Positions 21,262-60,785 of a stretch of DNA of 64,000 nucleotides are shown here, piece after piece. The DNA comes from an uncultured Pirellulaceae bacterium (GTDB lineage: Bacteria; Planctomycetota; Planctomycetia; Pirellulales; Pirellulaceae), in assembly GCA_937944405.1 (NCBI GenBank), contig CALDYR010000014.1, positions 1-64,000 of the forward strand, in the 5' to 3' direction. A model generated the notes under the pieces. It did no database searches, was not told the DNA's origin, and was given only the letters and a program-made list of their open reading frames with translations. Made by a program: the position numbers and the translations under genes. How positions within the stretch are numbered: the first letter of the stretch is position 1; each line of letters opens with the position of its first letter.

Positions 21262-24200
21262 ATGAATCCTGATAATCCTGCTATTGCAGTCAAAAAAACA
21301 AACGGACTTTCTTCGCCAAGCTTTCAAGGGCTTTTGTGGACCAATTGGTTGACCGCGATCAACGATAATGCGTTTCGTTGGTTTGTGATCGGCGCCGGTA
21401 AGACCTACTTCCCGGTAGGCGAAGAAGGCACGGTGCTGATGTTGGCAACGATTTCGTTTGTCATCCCCTATATTCTTCTGGCGTCCCCGGCAGGATGGTT
21501 GGCCGATCGCTTCGCCAAACGTGACGTCATTGTCGGCTGTAAGGTGCTCGAAATCATCGTGATGATCATCGGCATCGCGTCCTTATTACTTGGCAGCATT
21601 ACGTTGTTAATGTCGTCGGTGTTTTTGATGGGAGCTCAAAGCGCGCTCTTTGCGCCCGCTAAAATTGGCACGATCCCGGAACTGCTGGACGAATCGGAAA
21701 TTTCCACCGGCAACGGGATTTTCAATTTAGCCACCCTTTCGGCGGTGATCATCGGCATGGGCATCGGCGGCTATCTGGCGGATAAATCGGGTTTGCTGGG
21801 GCAAGAGAACATTGGACTGACCGGTTCAGTTTTAATTGGGATCGCCGTGGTTGGGACGATCGTTAGTTTATTGATCACGCCCCATCGTGCCGCCAATCCA
21901 ACCGCCAGATTTCCCTACAACGTCCCGGTGGAAACGGCACGCAACATCGGTCAACTGGTTTCATTCAGTCGTTTGTTTCGCGTCGGTTTGGGGATTATTT
22001 TCTTTTGGTCGATTGCCAGCATTTCTCAATTGAACATCGATATTTTCGCTTCCGAGAGCGGGAGCGTGAACGAAGTCGAAAAACTACCGTTGCTGATTTC
22101 ACTGGTGCTTGGTTTAGGCGTGGGCAGCGTGGCGGCGGGAATCGCTTCGGGCGGCAAGATCGAACTGGGGCTTGTCCCTTGGGGGGCTTTAGGGATCGGG
22201 GTCTTTAGCATGTTGTTGTTTTTCACACCGGCCGACTTTATTACCGGCGGTTTCAATTTCAAACTGGTCATTGCCTGCGGCCTGCTGGCGGCCCTAGGAG
22301 CCAGCGCCGGGTTCTTCGATGTCCCGCTGACATCCTATTTGCAAAAGCACAGTCCACCCGAACGATTAGGAGAGATCCTTTCGGCGGTGAACTGTTTGGC
22401 GTTTGCTGGGATTGCGTTTGTTTCGTTGTTGTTGATGCTGCTGACGGTGGGAGTCAGGCAAGGATCGTTTGAAAATTTACCGGTCACGATGCGCGGCGCG
22501 AGTCTCAATCCCGTTCAACGTGAGGCGCTCGAAACGGCGGTTGCGCAGTATCAATCTGCCCTCCGCACGGCCGAGAATTGGGATGAAGTCGATTTGCTGG
22601 AGTTTGCCCCCCCCGTCGACAGCCTGCAACGTTCGCAAGCAATCAATGAATTGGTAAACGCCGAAATCAACTTTCGCAAAGAGAAAGACGAAATCACATC
22701 GATCGTGCGTTATCAAGACGCCGACCGGTTTCCCAAACAACAGCAACGTCAGATAAAGAAAATCCTGCAACAATCGGGGCAGTTGCCCTTATTTTCGGCG
22801 CGCAGCGTATTTTTGATTTTCGGATTGTTGACGTTGCCGGTGTTTGGTTACGCCTTTTGGAGGCTACCGCACGCGATGGTGCGGATGGGGTGGGTGTTGA
22901 TGCTGCGGTTTTTCTATCGCGTTAAAATTCATGGGTTAGAAAACATTCCCGAAACCGGCGGTGGGGTGATCGTGGTTAATCATTCGACGTGGCTTGATGG
23001 AGTGATTTTCCGCGTGTTCGCACCACGGACAGTACGCATCATTGCTTACGCTGGGAACTTCAGTAATCCTATTATGAAAAAATGGGCTAGTTTTTGCGGT
23101 GTAATTTTGATTTCAGGTGGCCCCAAAAGCATCGCCAAAGCCTTCAAAGACGCCCGCCAAGCACTTGATGATGGCGAATTGCTGGGGCTGTTTCCTGAAG
23201 GCGGTATTTCGCGCAGTCAGCAAGTCCGTTCGTTTAAACCGGGTCTGATGAAGATTCTTAAAGGACGCACAGTCCCAATCGTCCCCATGTATTTCGATGA
23301 ACTATGGGGCAGTTTGTTCAGTTTTTCTGGCGGCCGCGCGTTCACTAAAATCCCAAATTCAATCCGGCGGCCTATCTCCATCCATATTGGCCCGCCGATC
23401 AAACCGCACCCCGGTTCAATGGTTCCTATTCAAACCGCAGTCCAAAGATTGAGCTCGACGACCATGAAAAATTACATTGGAAAGTTCGTTTCGCCCGTTT
23501 CTGAATTTGTTTACTCCTGTAAGCGGCAGAAGTTTAAATCGAAGTGTGTCGACTCTTTAAAGTCAGAAGAAAAAGGCGGCACATTGCTGCTGCGGTCGCT
23601 GGTGCTGAGGCGGTTGCTAAAACGAGAAATCTTGGCTGAAGATGAAACCACCGTAGGCGTCTTGATTCCGCCGACGGTGGGAGGAGCGATCGTTAATTTA
23701 GCGTTGGGGTTGGATCAACGAACTGTTGTCAATTTGAACTATTCTTTGTCGCAGGACTTAATCAATCACTGTATCAGAGAAGCCAACATCAAGCGTGTTT
23801 TGACCACAAGAAAGGTCATGGAAAAGTTCAATTTCGAACTCGACTGTGAAGTCGCCTTTCTTGACGATCTCAAAGCCAAAGTGACTTCAGTCGATAAAGC
23901 GGTTGCTGCGACCCAAAGTTTCCTTGTGCCCGGCGTTTTGCTTAATCGGATGCTTGGCCTGCATAAGATCAAATCTGACGACGTGATGACGGTCGTGTTC
24001 ACTTCGGGGTCAACCGGTGTCCCCAAAGGTGTGATGCTGACGCATGAGAATATACTTTTTGACGTCCGCGGTTTTGAGAAAGCGGCCGCTTTCAAAACAT
24101 CGGACACAATCATCGGCGTGCTGCCGTTCTTTCATTCTTTCGGTTACACCATCACGCTGTGGGGGCCGATGATGTGTGATGTGCGCGGTGCCTATCACCT

Positions 24201-25083
24201 GAACCCGCTGGACGCCAAACAGATTGGCAAACTGGTCGAAAACTATGCCGGCACAATCCTCATGGCGACGCCCACGTTCCTGAGAACTTACATGCGGCGT
24301 TGCACCCCAGAGCAATTCAAAACGCTTGACGCGGTGGTGACCGGTGCCGAACGGCTTCCGCCAGAATTGGCTCAACAGTACCAAGAAAAATTCGGCGTGA
24401 CGCCGGTCGAAGGTTATGGGGTCACCGAACTTTCGCCCGCGGTCGCGGCAAATATCCCGCATTCCCGCCAAACGGGTGATTTTCAGGTCGATGACAAAGC
24501 AGGAACCGTGGGCCGCCCGATCGCCAACGTGGCGGTGAAAGTCTGCGATCTGGAAACGGGTACAGAATTGCCGTGCAACGAACCAGGGATGTTGTGGGTA
24601 TCCGGGCCGATCGTAATGAAGGGGTATCTCAATAACCCCCAAGCCACCGATGAAGTTATCGTTGACCGTTGGTATAAAACGGGTGACGTTGCGAAAATTG
24701 ACGAAGATGGCTTCATCACCATTACCGGCCGTATCAGTCGGTTTTCCAAAATTGGTGGCGAAATGGTGCCGCATTTGAAGATTGAAGAAGTGCTCAGTCA
24801 GTTTCTTGATTGCACTCCTGAGGATGATTCTGACGATCATCTGGCGGTAGCGGTGACCGCGGTGCCGTGCGAGAAAAAGGGCGAACGTTTGATCGTGTTG
24901 TACGCCTGCGATCACAAAACGATCGACCAAATGAAGGCGGCCTTGGCAGAAGCAGGGCTGCCTAACGTGTTCATCCCGGCAACCGACAGTTTCTTCAAAG
25001 TGAACGAATTGCCGATTCTTGGCACCGGTAAAATTGACCTCAAAGGCATTAAAGACAAAGCCCAAGCGCTGGTCGCCGGGTGA
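21262..25083 (+). CDS. Fused lysophospholipid flippase / acyltransferase / acyl-ACP synthetase (LplT-Aas type)
   Basis: A 1273-residue membrane protein with three domains. Residues 1-540 are an MFS transporter like LplT, which flips lysophospholipids inward. Residues 545-740 are a PlsC-type acyltransferase with the catalytic NHSTWLD (His574) and FPEGG near residue 647. Residues 770-1270 are an AMP-binding acyl-ACP/CoA synthetase with TSGSTGVPKG at 914, the GYGVTE block and a C-terminal GTGKIDL. Together they would import, activate acyl chains for, and re-acylate lysophospholipids. In E. coli LplT and Aas are separate proteins. A Gln-rich stretch sits between MFS helices near residues 420-520. 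Confidence 0.9.
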   Translation: MNPDNPAIAVKKTNGLSSPSFQGLLWTNWLTAINDNAFRWFVIGAGKTYFPVGEEGTVLMLATISFVIPYILLASPAGWLADRFAKRDVIVGCKVLEIIVMIIGIASLLLGSITLLMSSVFLMGAQSALFAPAKIGTIPELLDESEISTGNGIFNLATLSAVIIGMGIGGYLADKSGLLGQENIGLTGSVLIGIAVVGTIVSLLITPHRAANPTARFPYNVPVETARNIGQLVSFSRLFRVGLGIIFFWSIASISQLNIDIFASESGSVNEVEKLPLLISLVLGLGVGSVAAGIASGGKIELGLVPWGALGIGVFSMLLFFTPADFITGGFNFKLVIACGLLAALGASAGFFDVPLTSYLQKHSPPERLGEILSAVNCLAFAGIAFVSLLLMLLTVGVRQGSFENLPVTMRGASLNPVQREALETAVAQYQSALRTAENWDEVDLLEFAPPVDSLQRSQAINELVNAEINFRKEKDEITSIVRYQDADRFPKQQQRQIKKILQQSGQLPLFSARSVFLIFGLLTLPVFGYAFWRLPHAMVRMGWVLMLRFFYRVKIHGLENIPETGGGVIVVNHSTWLDGVIFRVFAPRTVRIIAYAGNFSNPIMKKWASFCGVILISGGPKSIAKAFKDARQALDDGELLGLFPEGGISRSQQVRSFKPGLMKILKGRTVPIVPMYFDELWGSLFSFSGGRAFTKIPNSIRRPISIHIGPPIKPHPGSMVPIQTAVQRLSSTTMKNYIGKFVSPVSEFVYSCKRQKFKSKCVDSLKSEEKGGTLLLRSLVLRRLLKREILAEDETTVGVLIPPTVGGAIVNLALGLDQRTVVNLNYSLSQDLINHCIREANIKRVLTTRKVMEKFNFELDCEVAFLDDLKAKVTSVDKAVAATQSFLVPGVLLNRMLGLHKIKSDDVMTVVFTSGSTGVPKGVMLTHENILFDVRGFEKAAAFKTSDTIIGVLPFFHSFGYTITLWGPMMCDVRGAYHLNPLDAKQIGKLVENYAGTILMATPTFLRTYMRRCTPEQFKTLDAVVTGAERLPPELAQQYQEKFGVTPVEGYGVTELSPAVAANIPHSRQTGDFQVDDKAGTVGRPIANVAVKVCDLETGTELPCNEPGMLWVSGPIVMKGYLNNPQATDEVIVDRWYKTGDVAKIDEDGFITITGRISRFSKIGGEMVPHLKIEEVLSQFLDCTPEDDSDDHLAVAVTAVPCEKKGERLIVLYACDHKTIDQMKAALAEAGLPNVFIPATDSFFKVNELPILGTGKIDLKGIKDKAQALVAG

Positions 25084-25408: not shown

Positions 25409-26908
25409 TTAATGGCCCTCGGTCGACGGTTCCATGTTTTCAGCCCCGATCAAGCGCTTTGCCAAACTGCCAACGGTCAGCCCTTGGGCGATAATTGAAA
25501 AGATCACAACAATGTAAGTGACCGTGAGAAAAGGGGCGCGGCACTCTTGGGGAAGAATCAGAGCCAGGGCGATCGAGATGCCGCCACGTAACCCGCCCCA
25601 TGTCATGATCGTTGTTGTGTGCGGTACAAACTTTAAACGCTTTGCGAAGAACGCGACCGGCAAAACCAGCGACAAAAAGCGCGAAACCAATACGATCACG
25701 ATTGCGGCCAAACCCGCGACGATAAATTTCTGTTCAACTTCCAGAATCAAAATCTCTAATCCGATCAGCACGAATAGAATCGCGTTTAACAAAATGTCAA
25801 TCAGTTCCCAGAACTTATCGACGTAGGTTTCTGTCTGTTTCGACATCGCGGTGCCTCGGACGGTATCGTTGCCGACGATCAACCCTGCGACAACCATCGC
25901 GAGGGGGGCTGACAGATGTAGGCACTGAGCCAATGAGCATCCGCCCATCACACACGCTAGGGTGATCATGACTTCAATTTCGTAGTCGTCGATTGACCGC
26001 AAAAGCAGATAGGTGCCGTATCCCAAGAGTAATCCCATCACAATTCCGCCGCCAACTTCAACCACAAATAGCTCGACCACCGACCAGACGTCGGCCCCGC
26101 CGTGATGTTCTACTGGCGTTTTATCGTTGGAATTGTTGTCGCCGAAATTGTCGTTGTGGGGAGGTGGCCCCTCGGATGCTGCGTTGTAACTGACCCAATT
26201 AACACTTGCCGATGAAGCGATCGAACTGACCGAAACGCCGTGATTGTCAGCGCTGTGATCGTCAGTGATGTGATCGTCAGTGCTGTGGGCGATAGCGGCG
26301 TGATCGTGATTGGGGGGGCCGTGGCCGGGATCTGCTCCTCCGGTCGCGATGCTGAAAATCGTCAGAAATACGACCACCCCGACGCCGTCGTTGAAGAGCG
26401 ATTCGCCGACGATTTTTGTTTCCAGTTTTTTAGGTACGCCTGCTTGTTTGAGAATCCCCAAAACGGCGATAGGGTCGGTCGGAGAAATCAGTGCTCCGAA
26501 CAAAAGACAATGAATAAACGTTATCGATAGTCCTAGATACCCCAACGTATAATAGGAGATTGTCCCCACCAAAAAGGTGGATGAAAGGACTCCCAAGGTG
26601 GCGAAAACCAGCACCGGCCAACGCTGCACGCGCAGTTGATCAAAATTAGTGTGCATCGCACCGGCGAACAGAAGAAAACCCAACATCACATCCATCAGAA
26701 CTTCTTCGAAATTGATGGCTTGAATCAGGGCTTTGGCCGATTCAATAGGGATCGGCGAAAACAGGCTGCTGATAAACAACGTCGCCGTAAAAAGGATGGC
26801 GATGATCATCAGCCCGATCGTGTTGGGCAGCTTCAGCAGGCGGACGTTGATATAGCCAAACAGCGCTGATAAAGCGATGATAATGGAACTGATTTCAAAA
26901 AGGCTCAT
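25409..26908 (-). CDS. Na+/H+ antiporter (CPA1/NhaP-like) with a His-rich insert
   Basis: A 499-residue cation:proton antiporter with about twelve membrane helices. The helix-5 region FGALISPTDPIAVLGIL and the following GESLFNDGVGVVVF (ion-binding Asp) are classic CPA1 motifs. A cytoplasmic or periplasmic insert at about residues 192-272 is packed with His, Asp and Asn. It is partly built of five-residue units such as TDDHI/TDDHS. The insert could bind metal or sense pH; this is inference. The matching DNA shows a 15-bp repeat (26241-26285). Confidence 0.88.
   Translation of the reverse strand: MSLFEISSIIIALSALFGYINVRLLKLPNTIGLMIIAILFTATLFISSLFSPIPIESAKALIQAINFEEVLMDVMLGFLLFAGAMHTNFDQLRVQRWPVLVFATLGVLSSTFLVGTISYYTLGYLGLSITFIHCLLFGALISPTDPIAVLGILKQAGVPKKLETKIVGESLFNDGVGVVVFLTIFSIATGGADPGHGPPNHDHAAIAHSTDDHITDDHSADNHGVSVSSIASSASVNWVSYNAASEGPPPHNDNFGDNNSNDKTPVEHHGGADVWSVVELFVVEVGGGIVMGLLLGYGTYLLLRSIDDYEIEVMITLACVMGGCSLAQCLHLSAPLAMVVAGLIVGNDTVRGTAMSKQTETYVDKFWELIDILLNAILFVLIGLEILILEVEQKFIVAGLAAIVIVLVSRFLSLVLPVAFFAKRLKFVPHTTTIMTWGGLRGGISIALALILPQECRAPFLTVTYIVVIFSIIAQGLTVGSLAKRLIGAENMEPSTEGH
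26241..26285. repeat. 15-bp coding tandem repeat in the antiporter's His-rich insert
   Basis: Three units (26241-26255, 26256-26270, 26271-26285) of the pattern tgatcgtcagtgctg differ at a few positions and keep the reading frame. Each encodes one five-residue Asp/His unit. Confidence 0.75.
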
Positions 26909-27901: not shown

Positions 27902-29278
27902 ATGCCATTGTTTAAGCTAAAACCGAGTATCGCCGATGGCGAAAAATCCAGAATTGAATTCTACCTTCAACAAATCAGCCAATGTATCGGCGGCGGTCGT
28001 TTTCAATTGGACGTTTTGAACTCAGAAGCCCTGCTGTATCACGATGTCGAAAACTCAACGCTGCTCGAAGTGGAGGCTCTAGCGCTAAAAATTGGCAAAC
28101 ACTTGTCGCATGACGTTGGTAATATCGCCATTGCGAAACAGATCCAGTCATTGGAAAAGTGCGGCGGTGGAGGTGGCTGAGGCGGCGGATCCTGCGAAGG
28201 GCTCGGCGGTCTGCCGGGGACATATGACGCACATCAACGTTTAATAACACTGCACACGGAGATGAAATCGGAACCCGGTCTAACGGCTGCGGCGCTGATT
28301 CACCATGTTGTTGCCGATCTTCTTCATCAGCAAAAGTTTCCTTACGCCCATTTCCCAGAACTGGTCGATCTGGCGGTCGTGATGACGGGACTGGGGGCGA
28401 TTCGAAGCGGTTTTGAGTTTGTCAAACGGGCTGATATTTTTTGGGATTCGACCTATTGGGGTGTCTTCCCGCGCCCGTTTCTTGATTCGCCGACGCTCAG
28501 TTACGCCCACGCGATGGCCGCGTGGATGCGTGATGAACGAAATCCCGACTGGTTTGCGGAACTGCCGGCAACGCTAAAAGGTGGAATTAAGAAGTCGCTT
28601 AAATTTCTTAACAAAACGAATGACTCGTTTTTCACCCCCACAACGGCCAATCAACCTTTGCTTGACCAGGACCAATCGCAATGGTTGGCGATGGCGATGG
28701 ATCATTCCGTCGCCAAACAAATCATCGCCTTGCGCCATTTCAAAGCCGACGATTCACACACCCACCAGCAGCAGAAAATTTTGCTGGCGAAATTGCGGAC
28801 CGCAAACGGTCCGTTGTTATTACATGCGCTCTCGACAGTCGAATCGCTGAAGTTGAAAGACGATCAGATCGTAGATCAACTTTCAGTTTTAACGGAGAGT
28901 CAAAATGATGAAGTGCGAGCCAAAGCGCTCATTGCGTTAACGAAGCTCGGCGCGGTGGACGAACAAACCGTTGTTACCGCCACCAAGATGATCGATAGCA
29001 CTGCCAAACACGTTATTTATGCGGCAATGTTCGCGCTCAGTTCTCGACCGCGAGTCGATGCGGCGACCTTAAAGCGAGTTGATCGAGGGTTTCTGTCGGC
29101 ATTGCAAACCTGCGACTACGCATTCATTCAGCTTTACACAGCCGCGTACGCGCATTGGATAGATGATCCTCAAGCGTATTTTGATCAATTGCTTGGTGAC
29201 GCTCAGGAGTATCTTGAGATTGCGACCGATTCATTAAAATCGGCGCGTCAACAGGAGGTTGCACTGGGAGAGGATTGA
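27902..29278 (+). CDS. Candidate selenoprotein with CGGGGG-U-GGGSC motif and HEAT-like C-terminus
   Basis: One frame of 458 codons interrupted only by TGA at 28178-28180 (codon 93). Before it stand 92 residues ending Cys87-GGGGG. After it the frame reads GGGS-Cys98 and stays open to 29278. The first later ATG (28262) has GGAG only one base upstream, too close to serve as a ribosome-binding site. The flanking glycine runs and cysteines suggest a redox centre, Cys87/Sec93/Cys98. A SECIS-like hairpin follows at 28202-28218. Residues from about 190 are helical with HEAT-like repeats (EVRAKALIALTKLGA). No family recognised. The alternative is two genes, of 92 and 338 codons. Confidence 0.75.
28202..28218 (+). 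promoter_or_regulatory. SECIS-like hairpin of the first selenoprotein gene
   Basis: A 6-bp GC-rich stem (28202-28207 with 28213-28218, one U-G pair) closes the loop GGUCU. Twenty-seven bases separate the TGA from the loop, within the 16-37 nt typical of bacterial SECIS elements. The loop sequence matches that of E. coli fdhF (AGGUCU). It would recruit SelB with Sec-tRNA. Confidence 0.7.
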
Positions 29279-29610: not shown

Positions 29611-30411
29611 ATGTCTAACACAATGGAAAACGTAAAAACGATTAACAGTGCCGTCCGCACGGTAATGATGTTGGTGATCGCCGGAGTTTTGGGCTACGGT
29701 GGGTACACCGGGTACACAGAATTTATCGAACCCGGCATCCAGGCCAAACAAGCCATGGCCGATCTTGAAGAGATGAAACGGGTTAACCAAACGCAAGCCC
29801 AACGACTGCGCGAATCGGAAGAGGAAAATGACCGGCTCGCGACAATCAATAAGCTGATGCGGGTCGAGGGCCGTGTCGCGAATTTACAGGTTTTGGAGAA
29901 AGGCGTCGACGAAGACGGACAAGATTATCTCGAAGTTCGTTTCACCGAAGTCGATGAAGGTGGTTACCCAATCGGCACGGCTCGTGATTTTACGCTTGCC
30001 GGTGACACATTCTTTATCGATTGTTGGGTTGCCAAATTTGAAGATAAATACATCGAACAGGTGGACGATCTGCGCGGCCAATCGTTGGTGATGTTCAAAA
30101 GCATTTTCGGTAACGATCAAAAACCCAGCGAAGCTTTTTCGCTTGATGATTCTTCGCAGCGAGTCCCCAAACGCTATCAGACGGAGCGGCAGAGCACATT
30201 TGAGACAAAAATCTGGGCCGATTTCAATACGGTCTGTAACGATCGTGAAAAACAAAAAGAGCTTGGCATTCGCGCGATTCATGGCCAAGCGAATTATCTT
30301 CCGCCAGAAGAAGGAAGGACTTACCAAGTCAATTTACGGTCGACCGGCGATGTGAGCTTAACACCGCTGGCAAGAAAAGACGATCAAAACCAAGGCGGCC
30401 AAGACGACTGA
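29611..30411 (+). CDS. Membrane-anchored coiled-coil protein, unknown
   Basis: A 266-residue product with one N-terminal membrane helix (residues 15-35, TVMMLVIAGVLGYGGYTGY), a coiled coil (about 45-85, rich in Glu, Gln, Arg), and a mixed soluble domain of 170 residues. No family recognised, though similar architectures occur in planctomycetes. It is probably an inner-membrane protein with a periplasmic domain. Confidence 0.7.
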   Translation: MSNTMENVKTINSAVRTVMMLVIAGVLGYGGYTGYTEFIEPGIQAKQAMADLEEMKRVNQTQAQRLRESEEENDRLATINKLMRVEGRVANLQVLEKGVDEDGQDYLEVRFTEVDEGGYPIGTARDFTLAGDTFFIDCWVAKFEDKYIEQVDDLRGQSLVMFKSIFGNDQKPSEAFSLDDSSQRVPKRYQTERQSTFETKIWADFNTVCNDREKQKELGIRAIHGQANYLPPEEGRTYQVNLRSTGDVSLTPLARKDDQNQGGQDD

Positions 30412-30947: not shown

Positions 30948-30983
30948 ATGATTTCACCAACACGATTTTTGGACGACCCCCAT

Positions 30984-32471
30984 ATGCCGTATCAGAGCTT
31001 GTTGCGCCTTAAATACGATACTTGCAGCGCATTATTGTTCGGTGCGCTGTTGCTGTTTTTGGGAGGTTGCGACCAGAAAAAGGTTCAGCGTCTGGAAATC
31101 GACAATCAAGAATCGACGCCCGCGACGGTTCGCGCCTATCCCTGTACGGTGTTGGTCGTGGGGCAAGAATCCATCAAAGAATCACTGGAACGCCAGTGGT
31201 CGGCGCGGCATGATTCTGAATTCAGTGTTCAAACGATATCCGAATCGGATTTTGCAGCGACCGATTTTCAGATTCAGCAAGGCGTCGACGTTGTCGTGTA
31301 CCCCGCTGGGATGATGATCGAATTGATTCACCGAGGATCCATTGTGGAACTTAAACCCACGATCTACCAAGGTGATTCGTTTAACAAAAGCGATTTACTG
31401 AAACACTTTCGAAAAAGTGGAATTCGGTACGACAGCAAAACGTGGGCAGTGCCTTGCGGGGGCGTTTTGTTCGGCCTGCTGTATCAGCCAGATGCTTTGG
31501 CGATAACAGACTCTGAATTGCCTGAAACGTGGAGCCAGTTGATTCGGTGGGGCGAAAAACTGGCAGCCAGGTCTCAAGAAAACGCTGGCCAGCAAACTAG
31601 AAACAGGCAACCAACGCCAACCAAAATTGCGCTCCCGTTGTCGAAGGGATGGGCGGCGAATTCCTTCGTTGCTGTTGCTGCGGCTTATGCCCGTCAGAAG
31701 GGGCGACTGTCGGTTCTATTTGAACGACGAACGATGAAACCGCTGATCACCTCCGAATCTTTCGTGCGCGCTTTGGATGAAATTAAAGCGCTGGCGAGTT
31801 TGAATCCGGATTGCTTGAAAATGACGCCGGAAGACGTTTTGCAGTCTTTGGTTGATGGAAGGCTTGCCGCCGGTATCACTTGGCCGACCGTTTCGGTGGC
31901 GGCCGTTTCTGATAACGACGCGGTTGGTACTTTGTTGGTTAGCGCGTTGCCCGGTAGTGACAGGTACTTCGACGAATCGACTCAGGCTTGGGGGACCCGT
32001 GCGCGTCGTGAATCGCGCGTGGTGAATCTGCATGGTATCGGAAGCCTGTTGGCATCGCAGACAAAAATTAGTCGCCGTGCTCAGTCGGCGGTGGAATTTT
32101 TGAATTGGTTACCGGAATCAACCATCAGTCAAACGTTGTTTGCCCAGGATCCATTGCGTGGGCCGTTTCGCGTCACGCACTTGGGAGACGTGGAAACTTG
32201 GATCGGCGATGATTACGGACTGGAGTTTGAAACGTCTTTCGCCAGCCACTTAAAAGAAGCTCACGACCAGACATTGATCATGGCGCTGCCGAGCATCCTA
32301 CGGCAGGGGGCCTATATGAAGATTTTAGACGATGAAATCGGCGATTGTCTCAAGTCCGATCTTGGGTCGAAGGCGACTCTTGAGAAGGTCGCCAAATCAT
32401 GGGAGGCGTTAACTGATTCGATCGGGAGAAAAACACAGTCCAACATCCTGAGAAGGAACTCAAACTTCTAA
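30984..32471 (+). CDS. Extracellular solute-binding lipoprotein, family 1-like
   Basis: A 495-residue product starting MPYQSLLRLKY with a lipoprotein signal whose lipobox is FLGGC (Cys near residue 29). The mature part resembles family 1 periplasmic binding proteins. It has PATVRAYPCTVLVVG, a hydrophobic-aromatic hinge (SKTWAVPCGGVLFGLLYQPDAL) and PETWSQLIRWGEKLA. These normally deliver sugars to ABC importers, but no permease or ATPase is adjacent, so the ligand is unknown. It converges with a large TPR gene. Confidence 0.75.
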   Translation: MPYQSLLRLKYDTCSALLFGALLLFLGGCDQKKVQRLEIDNQESTPATVRAYPCTVLVVGQESIKESLERQWSARHDSEFSVQTISESDFAATDFQIQQGVDVVVYPAGMMIELIHRGSIVELKPTIYQGDSFNKSDLLKHFRKSGIRYDSKTWAVPCGGVLFGLLYQPDALAITDSELPETWSQLIRWGEKLAARSQENAGQQTRNRQPTPTKIALPLSKGWAANSFVAVAAAYARQKGRLSVLFERRTMKPLITSESFVRALDEIKALASLNPDCLKMTPEDVLQSLVDGRLAAGITWPTVSVAAVSDNDAVGTLLVSALPGSDRYFDESTQAWGTRARRESRVVNLHGIGSLLASQTKISRRAQSAVEFLNWLPESTISQTLFAQDPLRGPFRVTHLGDVETWIGDDYGLEFETSFASHLKEAHDQTLIMALPSILRQGAYMKILDDEIGDCLKSDLGSKATLEKVAKSWEALTDSIGRKTQSNILRRNSNF

Positions 32472-53945: not shown

Positions 53946-56900
53946 ATGAACACCATTCGAAAAAAAAATCCCGCCGCCCAATGCAACTATCCGGTTGGTG
54001 TGACGCTGCATCAAATAATCTCAGTGTCGGCGGAACGCTGGCCGGAAAATGTGGCGGTTCAATTTGAAGACGATTCGCTGACGTATCGACAATTGGACCA
54101 ACGTTCAAACCAATTAGCGCACCATCTGATATCTCAAGGCGTTGAAGCCGGAACGTTGGTAGGTTTGTGTTGTCAGAGGAACATTGACACCGCGGTAATG
54201 ATTCTTGGGATACTCAAAACGGGAGCCGGTTATGTGCCGCTGGATCCTGAATATCCTTTGGATCGAATTCAATTTATGGCTTCAGATTCAGATCTAGCAT
54301 ACGTCTTGGGGCACACCCAACAACGGCAGTTGATCGAATCGCTGGGGCCAGATTTTACACTCGTTGATGACAATCGCCAACAGATAGATCTTTGCCAAAC
54401 GACCGTGCCGGCCCGGTCGGTGGACCCTGCCCGAAGCATTGCTTATGTGATTTATACCTCCGGTTCGACAGGGCTCCCGAAAGGTTGCTTGGTTCCGCAC
54501 GCCCCTGCGGTGAATCAAACGTTTGCAATGGGCAGTCGTTTAGGATTCGCTCAGACCGATAGCTTGTTGGCCACGACGACGTTGGCGTTTGATTTCTCGA
54601 TCATGGAAATGTTTGTTCCGTTGTTTCATGGTGGGACGTTGGTAATTGCTGACCGTCAAACCGCGAAAGACAACGACGCGCTGGTAGCGGCGATTGAAAA
54701 ACACCAGGTCACCTTTATGCAGGGGACTCCTGCGATGTGGCGATTGATCTGCCAAACGGATTTTGTTGGCGGCCCAGAGATGACCTTTGTCGCCGGTGGC
54801 GAAGCGTTGCCGCGCGATCTATTACAGCCTTTGCTTGACCGCTGTGGTCGGTTGTTTAATCTCTACGGACCAACCGAAACCTGTGTTGGTTCGAACATGG
54901 GGCAGATCAAAACCGCCCAGGATCGTATCACGGTCGGGCCGACATTTGACAATTACAACGTTTACATTGTCGACCAAGCACGTAACATTTGCCCGCCTGA
55001 GACAACTGGCGAAGTTTGGATTGGTGGTGCCGGGGTCACCGCAGGCTACCAGAATCGTCCTGAACTTACGGCTGAAAAATTTGTGGTCTTCGGTGGCGAA
55101 CGTGTTTACCGCAGCGGCGATTTGGGAAAAATTACTGACGATGGGTTACTGGAGATTGTCGGCCGAATCGACAACCAAGTCAAAATTGCCGGCCACCGAA
55201 TCGAACTTGGAGAAATCGATGCCGCGATGGCGGCGTGCGATAACGTGCGATTGGCCGCGACGGTTGTCCAAGAGTTGGCGCCCGGTGATGTGCGGTTGAT
55301 TGGCTACCTGATTGCACAAGACGATTCGCAAATCGACCTGGGAGAGATAAAGGACACAATCGCACAAACGCTGCCAGAATACATGATTCCCGCTTTGCTG
55401 ACCGAAGTGGACGAATTCCCTTACACGCCCAGCGGTAAGCTTGACCGAAACGCCTTCCCTGATCCATCGTCCGATCGGCCAGATTTACCATCCGCTTACG
55501 TAGCGCCCAAAACGGACAATGAACTGGCCCTGTGTCGCATTTTTGAAGAGGTTTTGGGAATCAAAGGGGTCGGTGTTAACGATAACTTTTTTGAAATGGG
55601 TGGCAATTCCATTCGCGCGATCAAGGTCGTGTCGACTGCCAATGACCGTATGGATATCGCGTTAACAGCGGCTCAGTTTTACGATGCCCCTTCGATCGGT
55701 CAGATTCTGTCAGTCGGAAAAGACGAACAAAAGTTTGCCGGCAGTCAACCGCAAACCCAGCAGCAAAAAAACGATGGCAAGTCGCGGTTTGCGATCATCG
55801 GGATGGCGGCTCGCCTGCCGGGGGCGGATACGGTTGATCAGTTTTGGGACAATTTGCTTCAGGGTAAAGAGTCGATTCGCGTTTTCACGCCAGGGGAATT
55901 GGACCCGCTGATTGTGCCGTCTGTTCAAGAATCCGAAAACTACGTGCCTGCGCGGGGCATCATCGAAGACGCTGATCATTTTGACGCTCGGTTCTTTGGT
56001 ATCCCCCCCCGAGAAGCCGAAATGATCGATCCGCAGCAACGGATCATGCTGGAGATGGTGTGGACAGCGTTGGAGGACGCGGGCTGCGTGCCCGATAATT
56101 TCGCCGGTTCGATTGGTATTTGGGCCGGGACCTACGCGACCAGTTATTATTCGCAAATTCTTCTGCGCAACCCCGACGCGATCGCTCGGTTTGGTGAATT
56201 CCCGACCTTGGTTGCCAACGAGAAGGATTTCATTGCAACTCGGGTCGCGCATCGTCTGAACCTCACCGGTCCCGCGATCAACGTGAACACCGCCTGTAGC
56301 ACGTCCTTAGTTGCGATCATTGAAGCCTGCACGGCTTTGGCGGCAGGGCTCTGTGACGCGGCGATTGCCGGTGGAACGTCTGTTCAATTTCCGCAAAACC
56401 AAGGCCACTTGCATCAGCAAGGTAACATCTTCACCCCCGATGGGCACTGCCGTCCGTTTGACGCCGCCGCTGCGGGCACACTGTTTAGTGATGGAGCGGG
56501 CGCGATCGTGATCAAGCGGTTAGAAGACGCGATCGACCAAGGCGATCATATTTACGCCGTCATCGGTGGGTACGGTATCAACAACGATGGCGGAAGAAAA
56601 GCCAGCTTTTCTGCGCCCAGCATCGATGGACAGGCCGGTGCGATCGCGATGGCGTTGGATCATGCGGGATTCGATGCCGAAAGTATTGGTTACATTGAGG
56701 CCCATGGAACGGCGACGTTGATCGGCGACCCGATCGAAGTTTCGGCGCTGAACAAAGTTTTCACCGCCCGCACCGACAAACGCCAGTTCTGCAAAATCGG
56801 TTCGGTCAAAAGCAACGTCGGTCACACCGTTGCTGCCGCCGGTGTGACGGGATTGATTAAAACGGTACTCTCCCTGCACCACGAACAAATTCCCAAAACT

Positions 56901-59900
56901 CTACATTTCGAGAACCCGAATCCGCAGATCGATTTTGCTAACAGCCCGTTTTCGGTCACCGACCAGTGCACCGATTGGCCCCGTACCGATGTCCCTCGCC
57001 GGGCAGGGGTAAGTGCTTTTGGTGTCGGTGGCACCAACGCTCACATCGTGTTGGAAGAATCCCCGCGAATTTCAGCTCAATCCAACACCGATACTGATAC
57101 TGATACTGAGCAACCGTTGCAGATATTTCCGGTCAGTGCAAAAACGAAAACGGCATTAGAAAGCCGCATGATTCAGATAACCGATGTGCTCAGCGATCGG
57201 CAGATCTTTCACGACATCGCGACCACGTTACAGTTGGGCCGGGAACACCAGAGCTATCGGGCGTTTGTGGTTGCTGAAACTGCGGGCGAAGCCGCTCAAA
57301 AGTTTTCGTCAAAAAAGATGCCTGATGTGGTCTCGGGCAAATCGCGCAGCGACCAAAGAGCGACCGCGTTTATGTTCCCCGGCCAAGGGGCGCAGTACGT
57401 CCGGATGGGACAAAACCTCTATCAATTCAACGACGTATTTAAAAACGCACTTGACCGTTGCAGCGACATTCTTCAGCCGCTGCTGGGTCGGGATTTGCGT
57501 GATGTTCTGTTTCCCACCGATGGCGGAGAGGCAGCATCCGAAGAAATTCTCAAAAACACACGCTTCACACAGCCCGCGCTGTTCGCCCTCGGTTACAGTT
57601 TGGCCCAAGTTTGGGTTGATTGGGGAGTTACGCCTGACCGATTGATTGGACATTCGATCGGTGAATTTGCGGCCGCGTGCGTTGCTGGCGTTTTCTCGTT
57701 AGAGGACGGTTTGGCGATGATCGCTAAACGTGGCGAACTGATGGCGGCACTGCCGGGCGGCAGTATGGTCAGCGTTCGCAAAAACGGACGCGCAATCGAA
57801 CCCTTAATCAGCGGGGATTTGGCCGTCGCAGCCTACAACGGCCCTGAGTTATGCGTGGTCGCCGGTCCGGACGAACAAGTCGCCGCGTTCGTTGCGAAGC
57901 TCGAATCACAAGATATCGTGTGCCGGATACTGCATACCTCTCACGCGTTTCACAGTTCGATGATGGATTCCATTGTCGAACCGTTTGAGCGATTCATTGC
58001 GTCCATCGAGCTCCAACGTCCTCAGATTCCGATCATTTCCACCGTGACTGGAAAACAGATGACCGGCGCAGAAGCGACTTCTGCGGCGTACTGGGCTGAA
58101 CATCTTCGCCGGCCCGTTCGATTCTCAGATGCGGTCGAAACGTTGTGGTCCCAAGACGCCAGTCGGATATTGATCGAACTGGGGCCTAGGAAAACATTAG
58201 CCACTTTGGCGATGCAGCACGCTGAGGATCGAAAGTTGCAAAAAGCGATTCCATCGCTGTCCAGTCACTCAAAGGATCACGAGGAATTTCGCACCATGTT
58301 GGCCGCCGCCGGAGCGCTGTGGTTGGCCGGTGCAGATGTTGCGTGGGATCGGTTGACGGTTCAAAAAGGTAAAAAAATTCCTTTGCCCACTTACCCGTTC
58401 GAACGCAAAAAGTTTTTCGTGGAACCGATGGTCGCCATCCCTCACGCACCTCCGGTAAAACCTGAGTTACCAACTGAATCACCCTTTTCTCAATCCCCCC
58501 CCGTTCCTTTTCAAAACGCAGTCACTTCGATAGAACAAAAGAAAGTACCTATCATGAACCAGCGACGAACTAACATTACTCAATCGATCTATGAAGTCTT
58601 CGAAAACACCTCTGGTTACGATTTAACCGAATTCGAGGGCGATACGACCTTTTTTGAAATGGGGTTGGATTCGCTTGTGCTGACCCAGACCGCGACCGCG
58701 CTGAAGAAAGAGTTTGAAGTCGACATCACTTTTCGGCAATTGCTCGAACAGGTTTCGACCGTCGATGCTTTGGCTGAGTTTTTAGACGACCAGGCGTTGG
58801 GGGATAAATACGCTGCTGCGGCCCCAGTGGTTGTCGAAGCCCCTGCCAGCACGTTGGTCGACGTTGCGCCCACTGAGATCGCGCTGCCGGTTCCGGAAGT
58901 CTCATCAACTCCCGTTGCCCCGCAATCGTCTGCAGTCGCGGTAACGCAAAGTGCCCTCAGTTCGGTCGCGTTATCGGCTGACGCGAATGTGCAATCGGTG
59001 ATTCAAAATCAACTCCAACTGATGGCTACCCAGTTGCAATTGCTTGGCGGTGCGCCGGTGACATCACCGGCGGCTTCGGATTCACCGGTCCAACCGGTAG
59101 CAACAGACAGCAACGCGGAAAAATCCCAGCTAAATGCAACGGCCGACGCCTCCACAGCGCCCGACAACACGCCGACCAGCCATGGAACAGGCGCTCACGA
59201 GCAAGCTGCGACTGATGATGTGAAGGAAGCGCAGAAGCAGGCCTTCGGTGCTGCGGCGCGCGTCACGCTGTCGGCTGAAACGTTGTCCACGGTTCAAGAA
59301 AAAGCGCTCAAAGCGCTGATTCAAATGCAGTGCGACGCAATGCCCAAAAGCAAAGCCTTTGCTCAGGAGCACCGAAAGTATTTGGCCGACCCACGAACGG
59401 TTTCCGGGTTCCGGCCTGACCTCAAGGAGCTCATTTTTCCGGTGGTCGTTGATCGGACCAAAGGCGTCCACCTGTGGGATCTTGATGGAAATCAGTACAT
59501 TGATTTCACCTGTGGTTTTGGTAGCAATTTCCTGGGGCACGTTCCTGATTTCGTTGTGGATGAAATCACCGATCAATTGAAAACCGATTATTCGATCGGC
59601 CCGCAAACTCCGTTGGCTGGCGAAGTTGCGAAACTGGTTCACGAACTCACCGGCAACGAACGCACGGCGTTTGCCAGTACGGGGTCGGAAGCGGTTATGT
59701 GTTGCACGCGGTTGGCGCGGACGTACACCGGGAAAGATTTGATCGTCTACTTCAGTGATGACTATCACGGGATTTTGGACGAAGTGATCGTGCGTGGCAA
59801 CAAAAAACTCAAGAGTTTTCCAGCGGCTACCGGGATTCCTAAAAGCCATGTCGAAAACGCGCTGATTCTTCCTTGGGCCGACCCGAAATCGTTGGACATT

Positions 59901-60785
59901 ATCCGTGATCGTATCGACGAACTGGCGGGAATTTGTTTGGAACCGGTTCAAGGACGCCGCCCCGACTGTCAACCCAAAGAATTTATTGCGGCGTTGCGCG
60001 AAATCACAGAAGACGTTGACACCGCATTGATCTTCGATGAAGTCATTACCGGGTTCCGGATCGCACCCGGCGGTGCCCAAGAGTACTATGGCATTCGAGC
60101 TGATCTATGCAGCTATGGTAAGGTGTGCGGCGGCGGTCTGCCGATCGGTTTGATCAGCGGAAAAGCAAAATACATGGATGGGCTTGATGGTGGGTTCTGG
60201 GAATTTGGTGACGACTCACGCCCCGTAGCGGGGATGACTTACTTTGCCGGCACGTTCTTGAGGCATCCGCCGGCGCTGCGGGCCAGCAAAGCGATTCTCA
60301 GTTATATCAAACAGCAGGGCCAACCGCTTTATGATCGGATCAACGCTCTGGGGGACTACGCTACCGAGCAATTAAACGCGCTGTTTAAGCGGATGGAAGT
60401 TCCCATGGAGGCCGGTAATTTCGGCACGCTGTTTAAGGTCCAGATCAAAGAAGAACTGAACTACAGCGAATTGATCTTCAGTGGACTTCGTCGTCGAGGC
60501 ATGTTTATGTATGACCATCGCCCGAACCTGATGACGACGCAACACACCCGCGCCGATGTCGATGCGATGGTTGCGGCGTTCGAAGCCACCTTGTGCGAAT
60601 TGCAACCGTTGGGCTTTGTGCCGGGCGAAGGTTACAAGAACGTAAAACCTAAATTTGATGCAAACCAGCCGCCAAAATCCGACGCCAAAATTGGTAAGGA
60701 CCGCGCTGGCAAACCGGCGTGGTTTGTCCCTGACATGGCCAACCCCGGCCAGTTCACCCAGGTCAGCCAGAGCAGCATGGGGTAA
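53946..60785 (+). CDS. Hybrid NRPS-PKS with aminotransferase: A-T-KS-AT-ACP-AMT
   Basis: A 2279-residue megasynthase. The adenylation domain (1-500) has YTSGSTGLPKG near 168 and YGPTET near 306; pocket residues read D-F-M-Q-V-G-L-V-G. The carrier has Ser555 (GGNS). The ketosynthase has Cys784, His920 and His960. The acyltransferase has Ser1237 (GHSIGEF). The ACP has Ser1576 (GLDSL). A 200-residue Ala/Ser/Pro-rich linker leads to a class III aminotransferase (1800-2250) with FDEVITGF and PLP Lys2059 (YGKVCGGG). No ketoreductase is present. It would load an amino acid, extend it with a malonyl unit and aminate the beta-keto group, giving a beta-amino acid. Product unknown. Confidence 0.92.
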   Translation: MNTIRKKNPAAQCNYPVGVTLHQIISVSAERWPENVAVQFEDDSLTYRQLDQRSNQLAHHLISQGVEAGTLVGLCCQRNIDTAVMILGILKTGAGYVPLDPEYPLDRIQFMASDSDLAYVLGHTQQRQLIESLGPDFTLVDDNRQQIDLCQTTVPARSVDPARSIAYVIYTSGSTGLPKGCLVPHAPAVNQTFAMGSRLGFAQTDSLLATTTLAFDFSIMEMFVPLFHGGTLVIADRQTAKDNDALVAAIEKHQVTFMQGTPAMWRLICQTDFVGGPEMTFVAGGEALPRDLLQPLLDRCGRLFNLYGPTETCVGSNMGQIKTAQDRITVGPTFDNYNVYIVDQARNICPPETTGEVWIGGAGVTAGYQNRPELTAEKFVVFGGERVYRSGDLGKITDDGLLEIVGRIDNQVKIAGHRIELGEIDAAMAACDNVRLAATVVQELAPGDVRLIGYLIAQDDSQIDLGEIKDTIAQTLPEYMIPALLTEVDEFPYTPSGKLDRNAFPDPSSDRPDLPSAYVAPKTDNELALCRIFEEVLGIKGVGVNDNFFEMGGNSIRAIKVVSTANDRMDIALTAAQFYDAPSIGQILSVGKDEQKFAGSQPQTQQQKNDGKSRFAIIGMAARLPGADTVDQFWDNLLQGKESIRVFTPGELDPLIVPSVQESENYVPARGIIEDADHFDARFFGIPPREAEMIDPQQRIMLEMVWTALEDAGCVPDNFAGSIGIWAGTYATSYYSQILLRNPDAIARFGEFPTLVANEKDFIATRVAHRLNLTGPAINVNTACSTSLVAIIEACTALAAGLCDAAIAGGTSVQFPQNQGHLHQQGNIFTPDGHCRPFDAAAAGTLFSDGAGAIVIKRLEDAIDQGDHIYAVIGGYGINNDGGRKASFSAPSIDGQAGAIAMALDHAGFDAESIGYIEAHGTATLIGDPIEVSALNKVFTARTDKRQFCKIGSVKSNVGHTVAAAGVTGLIKTVLSLHHEQIPKTLHFENPNPQIDFANSPFSVTDQCTDWPRTDVPRRAGVSAFGVGGTNAHIVLEESPRISAQSNTDTDTDTEQPLQIFPVSAKTKTALESRMIQITDVLSDRQIFHDIATTLQLGREHQSYRAFVVAETAGEAAQKFSSKKMPDVVSGKSRSDQRATAFMFPGQGAQYVRMGQNLYQFNDVFKNALDRCSDILQPLLGRDLRDVLFPTDGGEAASEEILKNTRFTQPALFALGYSLAQVWVDWGVTPDRLIGHSIGEFAAACVAGVFSLEDGLAMIAKRGELMAALPGGSMVSVRKNGRAIEPLISGDLAVAAYNGPELCVVAGPDEQVAAFVAKLESQDIVCRILHTSHAFHSSMMDSIVEPFERFIASIELQRPQIPIISTVTGKQMTGAEATSAAYWAEHLRRPVRFSDAVETLWSQDASRILIELGPRKTLATLAMQHAEDRKLQKAIPSLSSHSKDHEEFRTMLAAAGALWLAGADVAWDRLTVQKGKKIPLPTYPFERKKFFVEPMVAIPHAPPVKPELPTESPFSQSPPVPFQNAVTSIEQKKVPIMNQRRTNITQSIYEVFENTSGYDLTEFEGDTTFFEMGLDSLVLTQTATALKKEFEVDITFRQLLEQVSTVDALAEFLDDQALGDKYAAAAPVVVEAPASTLVDVAPTEIALPVPEVSSTPVAPQSSAVAVTQSALSSVALSADANVQSVIQNQLQLMATQLQLLGGAPVTSPAASDSPVQPVATDSNAEKSQLNATADASTAPDNTPTSHGTGAHEQAATDDVKEAQKQAFGAAARVTLSAETLSTVQEKALKALIQMQCDAMPKSKAFAQEHRKYLADPRTVSGFRPDLKELIFPVVVDRTKGVHLWDLDGNQYIDFTCGFGSNFLGHVPDFVVDEITDQLKTDYSIGPQTPLAGEVAKLVHELTGNERTAFASTGSEAVMCCTRLARTYTGKDLIVYFSDDYHGILDEVIVRGNKKLKSFPAATGIPKSHVENALILPWADPKSLDIIRDRIDELAGICLEPVQGRRPDCQPKEFIAALREITEDVDTALIFDEVITGFRIAPGGAQEYYGIRADLCSYGKVCGGGLPIGLISGKAKYMDGLDGGFWEFGDDSRPVAGMTYFAGTFLRHPPALRASKAILSYIKQQGQPLYDRINALGDYATEQLNALFKRMEVPMEAGNFGTLFKVQIKEELNYSELIFSGLRRRGMFMYDHRPNLMTTQHTRADVDAMVAAFEATLCELQPLGFVPGEGYKNVKPKFDANQPPKSDAKIGKDRAGKPAWFVPDMANPGQFTQVSQSSMG

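Follow-up and report, generated by a model that had tools for sequence, protein, structure and literature searches.

Bacterial selenoproteins made with SelA, SelB, SelC and SelD and carrying a SECIS element within the gene (the FdhF type) are the closest described systems for the planctomycete gene considered here. With them it shares an in-frame UGA, Cys-containing homologues and the selenocysteine (Sec) machinery, as well as a hairpin in the interval 16-37 nt downstream whose loop has a G within its first two bases. The rule for bacterial SECIS elements, as given in the accessible text of PMC13188914, specifies a loop of 3-9 nt, a stem of 4-16 bp, a G in the first two loop positions, a distance of 16-37 nt from the UGA and an MFE <= -7.5. 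Thioredoxin-fold selenoproteins are a second point of comparison. They too have Sec with a nearby Cys, but the family described below has neither of their motifs (CxxU or UxxC) and matches no thioredoxin family in Pfam or NCBIfam. For the planctomycetes themselves, both Sec machinery and candidate selenoproteins are described in PMC4807772 for two organisms, P1 and P2, the latter a Rhodopirellula.

The window, meaning the whole stretch of DNA analysed, comprises 64,000 nucleotides of contig CALDYR010000014.1 from an uncultured Pirellulaceae bacterium. Positions 27902-29278 form one reading frame that opens with ATG at 27902, closes with TGA at 29276-29278 and is interrupted by a single TGA at 28178-28180 (codon 93); reading through this first TGA gives a protein of 458 residues. 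A mechanical ORF list divides the gene into ORFs of 111 and 338 aa, and the 27 codons between the TGA and the next in-frame ATG, at 28262, are open. The original prediction had described two same-frame ORFs parted by one TGA, with Cys87 (28160-28162) and Cys98 (28193-28195) on either side, the 27 open codons and a hairpin downstream, and all of these particulars, coordinates included, were correct. The features of the gene are as follows.

27902-29278, plus strand: putative selenoprotein gene, 458 residues with TGA93 as Sec; full-length relatives in 50 of 241 family genomes.
28160-28195, plus strand: Cys87-Gly5-Sec93-GGGS-Cys98 loop, absent from the HExxH relatives.
28178-28180, plus strand: predicted Sec codon TGA (codon 93); TGA in 38/38 Sec-form genes, a Cys codon in the 13/13 others.
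28202-28218, plus strand: SECIS-like hairpin, stem 28202-28207 paired with 28213-28218, loop GGUCU at 28208-28212; codon 103 is without synonymous variation.
28262-28264, plus strand: internal ATG belonging to the mechanical 338-aa ORF; as a start it is not conserved (ATG in 5/36 members).
28301-28315, plus strand: residues 134-138, the site of the relatives' HExxH, here HHVVA (motif lost); Glu in 0/36 and the second His in 1/36 members.
28358-28360, plus strand: invariant Glu153 (36/36 members), near the relatives' conserved post-HExxH Glu, with an alignment gap beside it.
28733-29050, plus strand: HEAT-like repeats, limits approximate, from the family profile against alphaRep/HEAT PDB chains and from Pfam HEAT_2.
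29111-29113, plus strand: invariant Cys404 (36/36 members), seen by eye also in the paralogues without Sec (L107-L110).
29276-29278, plus strand: terminal TGA.

It is important to emphasize that a TGA, a hairpin and an open in-frame gap of 27 codons, taken singly, are not rare or remarkable. The hairpin rule is passed by 41 of the 2311 TGA trinucleotides on the two strands of the window, and by 30 of 32 distinct Sec rows. The case exceeds chance because TGA is kept at codon 93 in 38/38 full-length TGA genes, drawn from 37 genomes. These come from a census of all 241 genomes of the window's GTDB family, in which a hit threshold of E <= 1e-30 returned 52 genomes; two (G831 and G844) were dropped as holding partial paralogues, leaving 50 with a full-length relative. 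In 37 of these the relative has one in-frame TGA (38 genes, since one genome, G410, carries two copies, L178 and L119) and in 13 it has none. Read once per gene, codon 93 is TGA in every one of the 38 Sec-form genes and Cys in all 13 open-frame genomes (11 TGC, 2 TGT), which is the pattern of homologues across the site that the original prediction had named as support; neither TAA nor TAG occurs there in any full-length gene of the census.

A search of 60 relatives recovered the full-length gene in the window's own genome and in 25/27 other members of its genus, each hit having a single in-frame TGA ahead of its terminal stop. Scanning GTDB contigs yielded 28 loci: 18 copies of genus loci already found, six further TGA genes in records titled Rhodopirellula, Rubripirellula or Planctomycetaceae, and four open-frame loci (three Rhodopirellula, one Rubripirellula obstinata) in which the codon is TGC, for Cys. 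In a phylum sample of 392 genomes the full-length match is confined to the window's own genome, with partial relatives in six others, and a profile built from 36 members of the Sec family likewise finds partial relatives in other planctomycetes.

The distribution of the two forms was placed on a tree of 49 family rows (a few genomes represented twice) and two paralogues. Sec was entered as Cys in the rows, so the site itself gave the tree no signal. The 12 Cys rows form one clade, with support of 100/99, nested within the Sec rows. A single change on the tree would account for this. Midpoint rooting puts the root on the paralogue branch, and with the root there the direction of the change would be Sec to Cys.

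That the mechanical listing shows two ORFs is the point in favor of two adjacent genes, the first ending at the TGA (28180) and the second starting at 28262 or nearby. Under such an arrangement the invariance of codon 93, always TGA and never TAA or TAG in 38 genes, is unexpected, and in 13 genomes the same region is one open frame with Cys. Full-length members span the site, and Met stands at codon 121, the position of the ATG at 28262, in only 5/36 aligned genes. The intervening codons also behave as coding sequence: pN/pS is 0.176 for codons 1-92, 0.169 for codons 94-120 and 0.131 for codons 121-458, as calculated from 38 moderately diverged pairs out of 630 (36 aligned genes), most of them from one clade of close relatives. 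The junction codons 94-120 are thus under purifying selection, and two separate genes are exceedingly improbable. The original prediction had also noted that the ATG at 28262 lacks a properly spaced ribosome-binding site; this counts for little, since no such site is visible by eye ahead of the start at 27902.

The hairpin itself (CTCGGC-GGTCT-GCCGGG, 28202-28218) has a 6-bp stem and a loop that begins 27 nt after the TGA, and its 17 nt folded alone reach -8.5 kcal/mol; the 17-nt hairpin of one relative is weaker, at -6.9. At 27 nt, 6 bp, GGUCU and -8.5 kcal/mol it conforms to the rule in the accessible text of PMC13188914, and the GC-rich hairpin to which the original prediction had pointed accordingly fits a bacterial SECIS element in spacing, stem length and loop G. 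The 37 Sec loci, a few of them from genomes represented twice, supply 32 distinct 48-mers, and in the alignment of these 97.9% of cells in the six-pair stem are paired. Three pairs are altered on both sides; such double changes total 10 cells, where shuffling gives 1.6 on average, and slid controls reach at most 49.5% paired cells and 3 double-change cells. RNAalifold recovers the same stem unprompted, plus one extra pair. Counted per Sec gene (n=38), the loop is GGTCT in 23, AGTTT in 14 and AGTCT in one, with all six pairs formed in 34/38 and five pairs in 4/38. The loop codon, 103, is GGT or AGT in 38/38 Sec genes, and across the 32 Sec rows it is the sole column with zero synonymous diversity among 442 scored.

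The predicted fold depends on where folding begins. With the UGA as the first codon of the fold, 13/32 rows adopt the hairpin as their minimum-energy structure and the window's 48-mer prefers another; from +12, a start at which the 5' part would be covered by the ribosome, the hairpin appears in 28/32 rows, with pair probabilities in the window of 0.97-0.99. Among the Cys forms the GGT/AGT loop codon is gone in 12/13. The outermost branch of the Cys clade (G206; L128/L179) keeps GGTCT with a broken stem, likely a SECIS remnant; one Cys form retains 6/6 stem pairs, and another (L067, loop GGACT) passes the crude hairpin rule. Rfam at gathering thresholds has no element at the TGA/hairpin site. 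A covariance model of the hairpin, run on the window's own genome, had this gene as its only hit at E below 0.5, and therefore reveals no other selenoproteins.

For UGA to be decoded as Sec the cell needs the corresponding factors, and selA, selB, selC and selD, on whose presence the original prediction had staked itself, are all found in the window's genome, each over its cut-off (SelA 579.8 bits, SelB 343.5 bits, SelD 254.4 bits, tRNA-Sec 66 bits). Across the 28 genomes of the genus, SelA is over cut-off in 22, SelB in 25, SelD in 28 and tRNA-Sec in 24; tRNA-Sec is present in 22/26 TGA genomes of the genus and also in both members that are without the gene (G009 and G013). Four genus members (G021, G023, G024 and G027) have SelD of the Sec type, a selenoprotein already known, with the motif CAGUAGK, and the genus therefore decodes UGA as Sec. 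The SelD of the genus sits in open frames of about 733-792 aa (L087-L106, G000:C29:1788-2708), more than twice the length of the SelD model, which suggests a fusion protein.

Outside the genus, the TGA genomes tested have tRNA-Sec in 6/6 and SelB over cut-off in 5/6. The Cys genomes tested have neither (tRNA-Sec 0/4, SelB over cut-off 0/4), and the SelB model finds instead matches of about 150-160 bits that are taken for EF-Tu. In the family as a whole, SelB at E <= 1e-55 is found in 32/37 TGA genomes and 0/13 Cys genomes, the latter 97-100% complete. Fisher's test on this association gives p 2.4e-8 but counts many times the one evolutionary change on which the association rests. The five TGA genomes without SelB at this threshold are G002, G004, G023 and G823 (71-89% complete) and G880 (98% complete). 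The last appears, judged by size, contig and coordinates, to be the same genome as G065, in which tRNA-Sec is present and the SelB match, at 183.8 bits, falls below cut-off. G004 (80% complete) has no SelA or tRNA-Sec hit and a sub-cut-off SelB match, a lack of machinery that is taken for assembly gaps. SelB occurs without a full-length member of the family in 82 family genomes, and the gene is therefore dispensable.

Near-cognate readthrough of UGA occurs in bacteria, and the codon might be read as another amino acid such as Trp, or the frame might be broken by sequencing error or decay. An identical TGA in 37 genomes speaks against both, as does the conservation of the hairpin; moreover, the residue that replaces it is Cys, in genomes where SelB is not found (0/13) and where tRNA-Sec, when tested, is not found either (0/4). 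Readings of this kind are very improbable. Comparative sequence as a whole upholds the selenoprotein interpretation: the gene almost certainly encodes a genuine selenocysteine protein, with UGA codon 93 a sense codon for Sec.

A selenium switch, in which the full-length protein is made when selenium is available and a 92-residue N-terminal product with a role of its own when it is not, would be compatible with the conservation of codons 1-92 (pN/pS 0.176, as above). Those codons are, however, the front of one homologous domain, and the Cys forms, which are unable to switch, are kept in 13 genomes. The switch is improbable.

The relatives that give the protein a context are planctomycete HExxH (zincin-like) proteins, some of which also have HEAT repeats. 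Ten relatives with an intact HExxH were chosen for comparison (others, e.g. L137, L138 and L147, lack it), and hhalign aligned the Sec family with them at a probability of 99.9, E 1.5e-32, over 432 columns. The homology is full-length, but the HExxH relatives have no Gly-Cys-Sec stretch, and the alignment resumes at a G-x-Y stretch that precedes their HExxH. In the Sec family the motif is lost in 36/36 members, Glu being found at position 135 in none and the second His (138) in one; Asp139, Glu153 and Ala158 are invariant in all 36. The comparison suggests that in the Sec family HExxH was lost and the Gly-Cys-Sec loop arose immediately ahead of the HExxH site, and the Sec protein quite probably descends from an HExxH (zincin-like) plus HEAT protein. 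"Zincin" is a likely label for the HExxH relatives and no firmer than that because their matches are weak: against Pfam peptidases SprT-like (PF10263) is best at E 4e-4, below cut-off, M78 and similar families are weak, and against PDB the hit is IrrE at E 0.018. In the Sec family itself, three members matched the M3 oligoendopeptidase model (best E 0.017, NCBIfam), a result that was not relied on.

The C-terminal part was described in the original prediction as HEAT-like and joined to a Gly/Cys/Sec center, and this was borne out, while the kinship with an HExxH plus HEAT family had been missed. The family profile matches alphaRep/HEAT PDB chains with a best E of 2.6e-9, and Pfam HEAT_2 is found in 24/26 members at E <= 0.1; the HEAT match of the window protein itself is below the Pfam cut-off (18.4 of 27.7 bits). 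Pfam, NCBIfam and PHROGs hold no family for the protein beyond weak HEAT and chance-level hits.

Several related proteins deserve mention in their own right. Planctomycete HExxH proteins, some with C-terminal HEAT, include L143, L136, L139, L140, L035, L036, L038, L144, L146 and L148, and this group, with its weak Pfam peptidase matches, is possibly an undescribed peptidase family. The window's genus also has diverged paralogues (L107, L108 and L109, from G005, G026 and G010) with neither HExxH nor the Sec loop, and the HEAT repeats of L107 are over cut-off.

The loop has the motif C-x5-U-x4-C, and the glycines on both sides of Sec are invariant or nearly so, which suggests a mobile selenol. 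The symmetric flanking by Cys that the original prediction noted holds in the window and is not strictly conserved: an upstream Cys (-7 to -2) is present in 26/38 Sec genes, the Cys at +5 from codon 93 in 36/38 Sec genes and 13/13 Cys genes, and both flanking Cys together in 26/38 Sec genes. Every one of the 13 Cys forms has a loop with three Cys, and in 10 of them there is a Cys-Cys pair. This pattern would fit a selenenylsulfide or disulfide cycle. Flanking Cys are missing altogether from two Sec members, L030 and L034, so a Cys resolver within the loop is not universal; these two must either rely on the thiol of a partner or have a different role.

A mechanism can be proposed on this basis. 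SelB with Sec-tRNA would bind the GGUCU-loop hairpin, its loop 27 nt past the UGA, as expected from established E. coli biochemistry. In the protein, a HEAT-repeat scaffold would be joined to a zincin-like domain with a decayed HExxH site, and the glycine-rich loop, inserted just before that former site, would carry Sec as a mobile selenol. The selenol would most likely take part in thiol/selenol redox reactions with a partner or substrate bound by the HEAT part, Cys98 (or Cys87) being the usual resolving residue. As the best explanation of the whole, a Sec protein with SECIS decoding, a decayed-zincin plus HEAT scaffold and selenol redox chemistry is very likely. For the particular question of role, redox rather than metal or chalcogen carrying has about an even chance of being right. 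A further possibility is a protein of metalloprotease fold that lost its metal site and was re-armed with selenium. Its Sec loop would lie ahead of the strand and helix that once formed the HExxH cleft, and the selenol might work inside that old substrate cleft, where the HEAT repeats would bring it peptides or the thiols of proteins. That more specific proposal is speculative and rather unlikely; if true, it would be a selenoenzyme class without a thioredoxin-like relative.

The main rival to a redox role is a carrier, with the Sec loop as an arm that binds a chalcogen intermediate, in the manner of the SoxY Cys arm, or, jointly with Cys87 and Cys98, a soft metal. The glycine motif of the SoxY arm is GGCGG. 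Holding of intermediates on a swinging-arm Cys, described for SoxY in the accessible text of PMC5336275, offers a likeness, in that a flexible arm bears a reactive chalcogen residue; it is meant as an analogy, and here the loop is internal, not C-terminal, and carries Sec. Besides the glycines flanking Sec, the two further Cys common among the Sec genes (26/38) and the three in all 13 Cys forms (10 with Cys-Cys) would suit a carrier, but L030 and L034 have neither partner Cys and no adjacent gene is conserved within flanks of up to 6 kb. Carrying is possible, if doubtful, and redox chemistry is the role preferred here.

The gene neighborhood was compared over 29 loci (28 relatives and the window; flanks <= 6 kb, many cut by contig ends), and no partner recurs in more than 7 loci. 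Neighbors common to up to 7 loci belong to close relatives. With no conserved neighbor within the flanks, there is no pointer to a substrate. A promoter scan found two promoter-like sites against 2.6 in shuffles, and a terminator scan five terminator-like sites, where shuffles average 2.9 (sd 1.6); neither result is usable. Elsewhere in the window, a 1273-aa open frame at 21262-25083 fuses MFS, acyltransferase and AMP-binding domains, 25409-26908 encodes a sodium/hydrogen exchanger with a His/Asp-rich insertion, and 53946-60785 is an open frame of 2279 aa. Downstream of the gene, two open frames at 29611-30411 and 30948-32471 have no Pfam (E <= 0.001) or NCBIfam (E <= 0.1) match.

The family had not been recognized when the gene was first noted, and the collections searched give it no name as a selenoprotein. 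At E <= 0.1 the 36 members between them hit 13 NCBIfam models, none of which describes a selenoprotein, and no row reads as this family in the 2026 review table of 119 selenoprotein families, as accessible in PMC13188914. Judged by their descriptions, none of the families in the accessible Table 1 of PMC13188914 has a Gly-rich C-G4/5-U-GGGS-C motif, HEAT repeats or a metallopeptidase-like domain. The accessible texts of PMC13188914, PMC12013277, PMC1794560 and PMC4807772 contain no HEAT-repeat or C-G5-U-GGGS-C selenoprotein; this search covered these texts. The family is thus absent from the lists searched, and the gene may be listed in candidate Table S9 of PMC4807772. The route of decoding appears to be standard, and the protein architecture and Sec motif appear to be new among those lists.

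The gene adds to the planctomycetes, in several records titled as marine genera, a selenoprotein family outside the thioredoxin-like world, and it is one that mechanical gene calling cuts in two. Its Sec and Cys pairs, with one Sec-to-Cys change accompanied by absence of SelB and decay of the SECIS element, would provide a natural test of the benefit of selenium.
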